32,395 bases of DNA. Origin: Gammaproteobacteria bacterium (GTDB taxonomy: Bacteria; Pseudomonadota; Gammaproteobacteria; Chromatiales; Chromatiaceae). The notes beneath the pieces are model-generated. The model was given only the letters and a program-made list of their open reading frames with translations, was not told the origin of the DNA and made no database searches. The DNA lies in NCBI GenBank assembly GCA_003696905.1, contig RFHJ01000146.1, forward strand, positions 1-32,395, written 5' to 3'. Made by a program: the position numbers and the translations under genes. Below, piece after piece: positions 13,332 to 15,296 of the stretch (position 1 is its first letter; every line of letters starts with the position of its first letter).

Positions 13332-14117
13332 TCACAGCTGCTGGCTGACATAGGCCAGCATGTCGTCCGTGGTGGAGATGGCCTTGGAGTTCATTTCATA
13401 GGCGCGCTGGGTCTCGATCATGTTGACCAGTTCCTCGACCACATTGACATTGGAACTCTCCAGTGAACCCTGGATCAGGGTACCGGCACCATTGGTACCT
13501 GGGGTGTCGATCTGTGGCGCACCGCTGGAGGCGGTCTCACGGTAGAGGTTGTCGCCAATCGCCTCCAGTCCGGTTGGGTTGATGAACTGTGCCAGGGTCA
13601 GATTTCCGATGGTGGTGGGCGTGGTACTGCCCGCCACCAACGCCGAGACGGTGCCGTCGGACCCGATCGTCACGCTCAGGGTATTGGCCGGCACGGTGAT
13701 CGAGGGCTGGAGCGGATAGCCGTTCTGGGTGACCAGCTGACCGGAGGAATCCATGCCGAAGGAGCCATCGCGGGTATAGACGATGCTGCCGTCCGGGTGG
13801 GTGACCTGAAAGAAGCCATTGCCCTGCACCGCCACATCGAAGCTGTTGTTGGTCTGCACGATGTTGCCCTGGGTATGGAGCTTTTGCGTGGAGACGGTGC
13901 GCACGCCTGTTCCGAGATAGAGGCCGGACGGGAGATTGGTGTCTTCGGTACTGCTGGCACCCGCCTGGCGTACGTTCTGATACATCAGATCCTGAAATAC
14001 CGCGCGATCGCGCTTGAAGCCGGTGGTGTTGACATTGGCCAGGTTATTCGAGATCACCGACATACGGGTCTGTTCGGCATCCAGTCCGGTCTTGGCTATC
14101 CAGAGTGCGGGATACAT
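13332..14117 (-). CDS. flgG: Distal rod protein FlgG
   Basis: From the ATG at 14117 the product has 261 residues, matching E. coli FlgG (260). The start [20 protein letters not shown] is followed by [23 protein letters not shown] central [12 protein letters not shown] and the end [20 protein letters not shown], then [23 protein letters not shown], are standard. It forms the distal rod inside the P and L rings. GAGAGGAAC precedes the ATG. The frame runs open for 39 codons upstream through the promoter region and was not used. It is the first gene of its transcription unit, behind the sigma-54 promoter at 14190-14206. Confidence 0.97.
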
Positions 14118-14189: not shown

Positions 14190-14206
14190 AGCAAGAGGCC
14201 TGCCAA
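14190..14206 (-). promoter_or_regulatory. Sigma-54 promoter for flgGHIJKL
   Basis: On the minus strand TTGGCAGGCCTCTTGCT agrees with TGGCA-N6-TTGCW, and GG and GC are ten bases apart. Predicted RNA start is near 14179, about 62 bases before the flgG ATG. The -24 side lies only 12 bases from the outer arm of the nested inverted repeat at 14218-14391. Confidence 0.7.
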
Positions 14207-14217
14207 ATACCTGCTGC

Positions 14218-14391
14218 CAGCAGGACTGCGTCATCTAAATTCGTAAGCTGTTGAAAAGGGGAACAGGTCGTCTGTTCGAAAAACGTCGACGGCAGGGATA
14301 CCGCCGTCGAGCCTACAAGGATGTATTTACGGCGTTTTTTCGAGCAGACGACCCGCTCCGCGCACAGTTAGATGACGTTACCCTGCTGCTG
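14218..14391. repeat. Nested inverted-repeat element between flgF and flgG
   Basis: Three concentric inverted repeats share one centre. Outer arms at 14218-14238 and 14368-14388 contain the perfect 10-bp pair CGTCATCTAA / TTAGATGACG and the pair CAGCAGG / CCTGCTG. Middle arms at 14266-14285 (GGTCGTCTG, then TTCGAAAAACG) and 14333-14353 (CGTTTTTTCGAGC, then AGACGACC) match over about 19 of 20 bases. The inner hairpin is TCGACGGC (14286-14293), a 9-base loop, then GCCGTCGA (14303-14310). The right half includes CCTACAAGGATGTATTTACGG, nearly the wording of short intergenic repeats I recall from other gammaproteobacteria. No open reading frame in it looks real. Confidence 0.75.
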
Positions 14392-14493
14392 CCACCAGAG
14401 GCCCTTGCCTGCAGGCCCATTACATGCACCAGGCGGCACCCCTCAACAGCCGAAACGGCAAACCCTTGCCGCCCCCCAAAAGTATTGCCACCC
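14392..14493. other. Rest of the flgF-flgG gap, no gene
   Basis: This is the part of the 438-base gap between the inverted-repeat element and the flgF terminator. I see no credible gene in it. The only structure is a short hairpin CGGCAA-ACCC-TTGCCG at 14456-14471. It recalls the CGGCAAA/TTTGCCG repeats upstream of the flgB promoter (18185-18221). Confidence 0.4.
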
Positions 14494-14528
14494 AAAAGCA
14501 AAGGGCCGAAGAGCGAACTCCCCGGCCC
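14494..14528 (-). terminator. Rho-independent terminator after flgF
   Basis: On the minus strand the stem is GGGCCG-GG-GAG, a TTCG tetraloop, then CTC-TT-CGGCCC. It makes 11 base pairs counting two G-U pairs, and is followed by TTTGCTTTT. It starts 28 bases after the flgF stop and closes the flgBCDEF transcript. Confidence 0.85.
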
Positions 14529-14555: not shown

Positions 14556-15296
14556 TCACACAGGCTTGACGACCGATGCGGCTGATGCAGCGGTTTCCTC
14601 CGCGGTCTTCATCAGTTTGATCTGCATCTCGAAGCGCCTTGACAGCTCTATCATGTCGACCATTTCGTTGACGATATTGACATTGCTCGACTCCAAGGCC
14701 CCGGACACCAGACGCTGCTCGAAGGCCGCCGGGGCCTCGGTACCGTCCTTGAGTCTCATCAGGCCATCCGGTCCCTTGATCATCTGATCGAACGCCGGGG
14801 CGACCAGTTTGATCCGATCGATAACCGCCAGTTCACTGGGCGGAGCGCCCTGTGGCCGAATCGAGATGGTGCCGTCGGCACCAATGTTGATGGCGTCGAA
14901 GGGTGGCAGTGCGATGGGGCCGGAATTCCCCATGACCGGCAGGCCATCGCCCGTGGTCAACACCCCGTTGGGATCGATCTGCAGATCACCACGTCGTGTG
15001 TACGCCTCGCCGCCGTCACGCGCCTGTACCGCAATCCATCCCCCACCCTTGACCGCCACATCCAGGTCTCTGCCGGTCTGGGTGATGGTGCCATGGGTGA
15101 AATCGGTCTGCGGTCGCTCGTCCAGTGCATATACCCGGGTTGGATGGCCCGGGCCGAACACCGGCATGCTGCGAAACTGATTCAGGTCGGCCAGAAAACC
15201 GGTGGTGTTGGCATTGGCCAGGTTGTTACTCGCATTGCCCTGCGCAATCAGGGTCTCACGAGCACCGCTCATGGCGACATACAGCATACGGTCCAT
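14556..15296 (-). CDS. flgF: Proximal rod protein FlgF
   Basis: The 246-residue protein starts MDRMLYVAMSGARETLIAQG, then NASNNLANANTTGFLADLNQ, the rod-family N-terminal motif. DLDVAVKGGGWIAVQARDGG is mid-protein, and the C-terminus is LESSNVNIVNEMVDMIELSR, RRFEMQIKLMKTAEE. Length fits E. coli FlgF (251). It is exported unprocessed and forms part of the rod below FlgG. It begins 15 bases after the flgE stop and is the last gene before a strong terminator, so here it is transcribed with flgBCDE and not with flgG. Confidence 0.96.
   Translation of the reverse strand: MDRMLYVAMSGARETLIAQGNASNNLANANTTGFLADLNQFRSMPVFGPGHPTRVYALDERPQTDFTHGTITQTGRDLDVAVKGGGWIAVQARDGGEAYTRRGDLQIDPNGVLTTGDGLPVMGNSGPIALPPFDAINIGADGTISIRPQGAPPSELAVIDRIKLVAPAFDQMIKGPDGLMRLKDGTEAPAAFEQRLVSGALESSNVNIVNEMVDMIELSRRFEMQIKLMKTAEETAASAASVVKPV

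Follow-up and report, generated by a model that had tools for sequence, protein, structure and literature searches.

The nested inverted repeats between flgF and flgG in the window (here the whole 32,395-nucleotide stretch that was analysed, from contig RFHJ01000146.1 of a Chromatiaceae gammaproteobacterium) are probably a single copy of a MITE that carries a CsrA-type RNA module of the Gammaproteobacteria and has no specific function at this site. Its core (14273-14344) appears, from sequence comparison, to belong to a wider gammaproteobacterial family of folded RNAs that resemble CsrA docking sites.

Architecture of the window copy

The MITE occupies positions 14221-14385 (165 bp); its terminal repeats are 18 bp long, and the target duplication that flanks it measures 10 bp (CTGCTGCCAG/CTGCTGCCAC). 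The features of the element and of its locus are:

13332-14117, minus strand: flgG, matching a Pfam flagellar rod family
14191-14205: sigma-54-like sequence GG-N10-GC, a promoter-like site upstream of flgG
14211-14220: target-site duplication, left copy CTGCTGCCAG, 9/10 identical to the right copy
14221-14238, plus strand: left terminal inverted repeat CAGGACTGCGTCATCTAA, from the inverted-arm search, with a boundary common to copies
14260-14283, plus strand: 5' arm of the outer stem bearing the core, 24 nt, 88% complementary to 14336-14359
14273-14344, plus strand: 72-nt core, scoring 84.3 bits with covariance model R1, this sequence being among the 33 used to build R1
14287-14306, plus strand: hairpin A, loop AGGGAT (14294-14299), from the sequence read against the family structure
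14311-14333, plus strand: hairpin B, GCCTAC-AAGGAT-GTA...GGC, loop AAGGAT (14317-14322), from the sequence and family covariation
14336-14359, plus strand: 3' arm of the outer stem, from the inverted-arm search
14368-14385, plus strand: right terminal inverted repeat TTAGATGACGTTACCCTG, from the inverted-arm search and copy alignment
14386-14395: target-site duplication, right copy CTGCTGCCAC, from flank comparison
14503-14528: terminator-like hairpin, arms from the inverted-repeat search
14556-15296, minus strand: flgF, matching a Pfam flagellar rod family

A sequence-only reading of this DNA had described three nested inverted repeats at 14218-14391, and these are real: the arms are recovered by the inverted-arm search, and the 165-nt element folds with -77.0 kcal/mol on the plus strand (z = -8.1) and -78.5 kcal/mol on the minus strand (z = -9.1), none of 200 dinucleotide shuffles being as good in either case. 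The outer, middle and inner arms described in that reading are all present; they lack the exact common centre it gave them, as the inner hairpin has a neighbour that it overlooked, a second side hairpin at 14311-14333. Its 21-base outer arms likewise exist (14218-14238 and 14368-14388, 21 nt, 81% complementary) and resolve into the 18-bp terminal repeats plus part of the target duplication. The setting it proposed, between a terminator and a sigma-54 promoter, is borne out by the hairpin at 14503-14528 and the GG-N10-GC sequence at 14191-14205.

Within hairpin B, UACAAGGAUGU agrees with the CsrA SELEX consensus RUACARGGAUGU from the second consensus base onwards; in the available text of the source of that consensus, the ANGGAN hexaloop is described as the loop of RsmE/CsrA (PMC7652899). 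Hairpin A shows a C.A mismatch at its closing position (14293/14300) and an A.C mismatch at 14289/14304, both of which become wobble pairs if read on the opposite strand. The copy is oriented antisense to flg transcription. Since two pairs of hairpin A are broken and the host copies show little constraint, the window copy is probably a decaying and inert MITE copy, most likely devoid of any specific function, including one in flg expression.

The flgF-flgG spacer in relatives

A GG-N10-GC site lies 58-96 bp before flgG in all 11 relatives in which the spacer could be read, and the spacer ends coincide with the flgG ATG. None of these 11 spacers contains a core match, the sole weak score in their vicinity (14.7 bits, L095 5770-5844) falling within flgG itself. 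The host FlgE is most similar to proteins of Sedimenticola and other Chromatiales-like bacteria (88% at best). With the core missing from the spacer of all 11 relatives and broken pairs in the window copy, the regulatory role before flgG that the sequence-only reading entertained finds no support, and a flgG-specific regulator was rejected.

A dispersed MITE in the host genome

Element matches in the host genome amount to 46 pieces at 40 places, the window included, when each of six long copies found as two halves is taken as one. Thirteen of these 40 places run into or adjoin a contig end, so that the true copy number may be lower, as some of the 13 may be halves of one copy. Full copies start with CAGG...GTCATCTAA and end with TTAGATGAC...CCTG, with small variations (element ends, CAGGRCYCCGTCATCTAA), and long variants carry about 50 extra bases with an additional CAGGGATG hairpin. 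The 10-bp flanks match at 8 or more positions in 19 of 25 paired host copies vs 3 of 600 mismatched-pair controls. Identical elements were counted once; the 25 pairings include two that are probably false (L015, 206 bp; L037, 345 bp), and L011, which has an 11-bp duplication, is scored as a miss. Mean flank identity is 0.78 at a length of 10 and 0.24-0.33 at lengths of 6-9, 11 and 12.

The copies are thus short, non-coding and dispersed, with terminal inverted repeats and a target-site duplication, as is characteristic of MITEs. The earlier suggestion of a dispersed MITE-like family is accordingly upheld by the 40 places, the 18-bp ends and the 10-bp duplication (19/25), and the search of the host genome for a second copy, recommended in the same reading, returned about 40 places. 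Its REP-like alternative is not supported, given the 165-bp length of the element, its terminal repeats and its target duplication. No obvious transposon or transposase was seen by eye near other end matches (20 stretches, 17 of them viewed in part). Carriage on plasmids or in E. coli was rejected: the element has no match in plasmids, and one core (from L053) has none in plasmids or E. coli genomes. In two host copies (L027 1-230 and L038 3791-4000) a further sequence, itself repeated and perhaps mobile as well, is inserted near TTAG/TGTGGAA next to the right end.

Host contigs C42, C51, C53, C68, C94, C223, C255, C263 and others end inside copies of the element, so that these copies are break points of the assembly. 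A search for csrA in the host, whose assembly is 92% complete, did not find the gene, and breaks at element copies may account for its absence. Of 55 genomes searched, 47 yielded csrA; these include every one of the seven other members of the host genus, one of them below the family cut-off.

A core family across the Gammaproteobacteria

In other genera of the host family the middle of the element alone matches, flanked by unrelated arms. Covariance model R1 (72 nt, 23 pairs) was built from alignment A1, which retains 33 of 64 core sequences, the window copy included, after long variants, near-duplicates and misplaced sequences were left out. At E <= 1e-3, R1 matches at least 92 of 369 gammaproteobacterial genomes, the host among them, and at least 83 of 271 genera; these class-wide counts are lower bounds, since at most 13 matches were scored per genome and stricter filters applied. 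The resemblance to a short intergenic repeat of other gammaproteobacteria, suggested in the sequence-only reading, is thereby confirmed. In a sample of the phylum searched at 1e-4, 29 of 398 genomes match: 28, counting the host, are gammaproteobacterial, and a single borderline match (6.5e-5) comes from outside the class.

Copy number and arrangement vary. At least 150 core copies are present in G281, a genome of two contigs, and L216 (genome G574, contig C1 94435-95643) has six head-to-tail cores about 227 bp apart in an array-like order. A core of the type of Ysr224, a reported Yersinia sRNA, is found at L368 6150-6330 on a contig classed as viral (IMGVR_UViG_2724679354_000001), the only exact core-pattern match in the IMG/VR collection.

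Conserved structure and loop constraint

The family structure consists of a long outer stem, a junction and two side hairpins, each with a C-ANGGAN-G loop. In the 33-sequence alignment 94.9% of cells are paired vs 33-56% in slid controls. An alignment of 105 distinct rows (A2) gives 94.6% standard pair cells, compared with 67.8% when shuffled and 31-46% when slid, and a covariation score of 0.689 vs 0.191 for shuffled rows. Both sides are changed in 610 cells vs 161 in the shuffled alignment, compensating changes of the kind that the sequence-only reading proposed to look for.

The loop letters A, G, G and A hardly vary in either hairpin (1.84-2.00 bits), and the loop-closing C-G is similarly constrained (1.72-2.00 bits), whereas loop positions two and six (N) are variable (0.61-1.07 bits). 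The outer stem has a median length of 25 bp (175 elements, two from the host), and in several genomes outer stems differ almost wholly among the copies of one genome. Host locus L170 contributes two rows to A2 and belongs to the set of 175 arms; it is excluded from the non-host mismatch and gene-context counts below. The family thus has the two ANGGAN hairpins on an outer stem that typify TwoAYGGAY RNAs and the paired GGA/ANGGAN loops of CsrA-binding RNAs; in the window copy the closing pair of hairpin A is broken by C.A.

The maintained strand

Outside the host, outer-stem mismatches scored on the GGA strand show a strong asymmetry, with 163 G.U vs 29 A.C and 89 purine-purine vs 16 pyrimidine-pyrimidine, which indicates that the folded GGA strand is maintained outside the host. 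The asymmetry persists when each position is scored a single time for every genome group (G.U 121 vs A.C 28; purine-purine 73 vs pyrimidine-pyrimidine 16) and outside the part of the stems covered by the model (138 vs 20 for G.U and A.C). It holds for copies antisense to both neighbouring genes (G.U 65 vs A.C 11) and for sense copies (24 vs 5). We infer that the maintained strand acts as RNA.

The host copies give 8 G.U vs 6 A.C, small numbers in which there is little sign of constraint on the GGA-strand fold, and they look largely neutral; this neutrality is uncertain, since purine-purine mismatches (12) exceed pyrimidine-pyrimidine ones (3). The sequence-only reading offered cruciform DNA or a long RNA stem; the cruciform fits poorly with the strand-specific mismatches of the wider family, and the folded strand agrees with them.

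Turnover in place at orthologous loci

The core was followed at one spacer in each of two genera: the ureB-ureC spacer in g292, a genus with a core match in 57 of 61 genomes, and the spacer between an AraC regulator and an acyl-CoA dehydrogenase in g300, with a match in 58 of 61. The flanking genes match the Pfam urease beta and alpha, AraC and acyl-CoA dehydrogenase families. Among the best 30 matching loci compared per genus, 23 are filled in g300, 3 are unreadable and the other 4 are shortened, being empty, reduced or left with the stem alone; in g292, 9 are filled, 2 have a stem without a core and 19 are without the element. These counts are not independent, because the loci are related to one another. 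All filled loci (23/23 in g300, 9/9 in g292) contain two C-ANGGAN-G loops.

The g300 stems, of up to 31 bp, have diverged and remain paired (G.U 30, A.C 1); those of g292 show 7 G.U and no A.C, two loci giving 5 bp by the ungapped rule. Across orthologous copies the stem changes are compensatory and the loop changes are confined to the N positions. In some lineages a copy has become fixed and selection probably retains it, as in the ureB-ureC spacer. There the mRNA carries the GGA sequence (ureB, ureC and the core all lie on the minus strand of L338). At L342 and L343 (ureB-ureC) and at L326 the core is lost and a paired stem with a short loop is retained. Insertion of cores into ready-made hairpins and snap-back copying of flanks were considered as sources of the copy-specific stems and set aside, though not for every genome, as some genomes and the orthologs show homologous stems diverging by compensation.

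Gene context and replication strand

Gene context was assigned from codon-scored gene calls at three stringencies. At the loosest threshold the 173 non-host elements comprise 53 tandem antisense, 25 sense, 28 convergent, 16 divergent, 45 edge and 6 located inside genes. Tandem antisense vs sense counts become 42/26 and 31/22 at the stricter calls (p from 0.002 to 0.27 across thresholds), so that the GGA strand shows no preference for the neighbouring mRNA; if anything there is an antisense excess, which weakens with stricter calls. Convergent spacers outnumber divergent ones, 25 vs 13, at the middle threshold. In G281, 58 of the 138 matches listed are on the leading and 80 on the lagging strand (p = 0.07, the terminus being assumed opposite dnaA), and a replication-strand bias was rejected as not significant. 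Inspection by eye shows no obvious promoter near core copies.

Relationship to known RNAs and repeats

A close published counterpart is TwoAYGGAY (RF01731), which likewise has two AYGGAY-type hairpins and a poorly conserved external stem, with GGA on the same strand. Three loci (L208, L209 and L223) exceed its gathering score, and among 16 core-bearing genomes the RF01731 model matches 7 at E <= 0.01, only 1 of them over the cut-off; it has no match in the window or the host genome. In their available text, one source lists TwoAYGGAY from human gut, gammaproteobacteria and Clostridiales (PMC2864571) and another proposes that it binds CsrA, naming Clostridia (PMC4333381); the CsrA idea is consequently not new. 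MITE dispersal and in-place stem turnover, by contrast, are absent from the available parts of the published descriptions.

Ysr224 (RF02770) has the same core, L214 reaching 82.4 bits with its model (cut-off 70) and the window copy 39.4 bits, below the gathering threshold of 70. It differs in being modelled on the strand complementary to GGA, with NUCCNU loops, and appears from the sequences to be a branch of the core family read on the other strand. Comparison of RF02770 with L214, L174, L048 and the window shows mismatch patterns which suggest that the maintained strand is the opposite of the one modelled for Ysr224.

CsrB/CsrC and RsmX/Y/Z share paired hairpins with GGA in the loop (PMC4333381, available text) and the ANGGAN hexaloop (PMC7652899, likewise), but are highly expressed small RNAs, whereas the present copies are dispersed, have a long outer stem and show no recognised promoter. 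The YPAL/RU-2, ERIC and Correia/NEMIS MITEs are similarly small, mostly intergenic, repeated and structured, according to the accessible part of PMC2229807; the present element has its own CAGG...CCTG ends, 10-bp duplication and core, the comparison with YPAL being by description only. REP/REPIN sequences are also palindromic, dispersed and intergenic, but the accessible text of PMC3733652 gives a palindrome of 20-40 bp, unlike a 165-bp element with terminal repeats. Core sequence strings gave no match in a literature that included few subscription papers, a weak negative, and nothing joining CsrA binding to dispersed repeats appeared in titles and abstract openings, where coverage was also weak. 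Within this limited search we found no earlier description of the extent of the family, the strand test, the in-place turnover or carriage by a MITE.

Discussion

Several other accounts of the structure deserve consideration. Integron attC sites are recognised as single-stranded DNA hairpins by a recombinase, and the GGA-strand hairpin might similarly be recognised as DNA by a recombinase or transposase, its structure being kept for mobility. Such a mechanism would tolerate the same strand-specific mismatches and agrees with stems that are free in sequence yet paired and with maintenance independent of gene direction; we nevertheless regard it as unlikely, because compensatory change in place at orthologous loci is hard to explain by mobility alone, in the host the element ends in terminal repeats flanked by a 10-bp duplication, and no strong replication-strand bias is seen in G281 (58 leading and 80 lagging among the matches listed). 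A double-stranded palindrome or cruciform would require no selection on a folded strand at all. Template switching can homogenise palindrome arms, and the arms here are long and near-perfect; however, equalisation of this kind predicts strand-symmetric mismatches, and the excess of G.U over A.C (163 vs 29) and of purine-purine over pyrimidine-pyrimidine (89 vs 16) largely refutes it. It also leaves unexplained why two dissimilar hairpins should keep A and GGA unchanged while the adjoining N positions vary freely, and is highly improbable.

The opposite strand could instead be the active one, with a REP- or YPAL-like 3' hairpin terminating or stabilising mRNAs through UCC. The surplus of convergent over divergent spacers at the middle threshold (25 vs 13), the tendency of tandem copies to put UCC on the mRNA and the modelling of Ysr224 on the UCC strand all point this way, but even in such copies the wobbles lie on the GGA strand (65 vs 11) and the loop constraint fits recognition of GGA, making this account quite improbable. 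A regulator specific to flgG, acting by looping, FleQ-type activation or attenuation, could draw on the start of the element 15 bp past the sigma-54-like site; it is very unlikely, since the element recurs at some 40 host sites and the spacer gave no core match in any of the 11 relatives, all of which retain the promoter-like site.

A MITE with an RNA module as its cargo remains our preferred explanation. A transposase acting in trans would have moved the element by its 18-bp ends, making the 10-bp target duplication. The cargo would be a stem of about 20-35 bp of almost free sequence with two hairpins at the junction, whose C-ANGGAN-G loops are those gripped by CsrA/RsmA proteins; by this resemblance the core RNA would be expected to bind CsrA, and two adjacent sites would be well matched to a single CsrA dimer. 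Transcription of the GGA strand should then either place the mRNA under CsrA control or titrate CsrA. Against this account stand the absence of a GGA-strand preference on neighbouring mRNAs, the modelling of Ysr224 on the complementary strand and the negative csrA search in the 92%-complete host assembly. In some lineages a copy would then become fixed and selected, and in this host the copies would be largely neutral. More tentatively, and with some doubt, it is possible that the transposon ends made a CsrA-binding module mobile and that some spacer copies (ureB-ureC, AraC-regulator/acyl-CoA dehydrogenase) have long been kept as regulatory RNAs, rewiring the Csr regulon, genomes with at least 150 copies possibly using them as a CsrA sponge too.

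The turnover of orthologous stems amounts to a clean natural experiment on RNA selection, in which the sequence is nearly free, pairing is kept and four loop letters are fixed. Should CsrA prove to bind the module, a mobile element would be extending the target set of a global regulator across a bacterial class, and the two Rfam entries TwoAYGGAY and Ysr224 may represent one family, Ysr224 having been modelled on the reverse strand.
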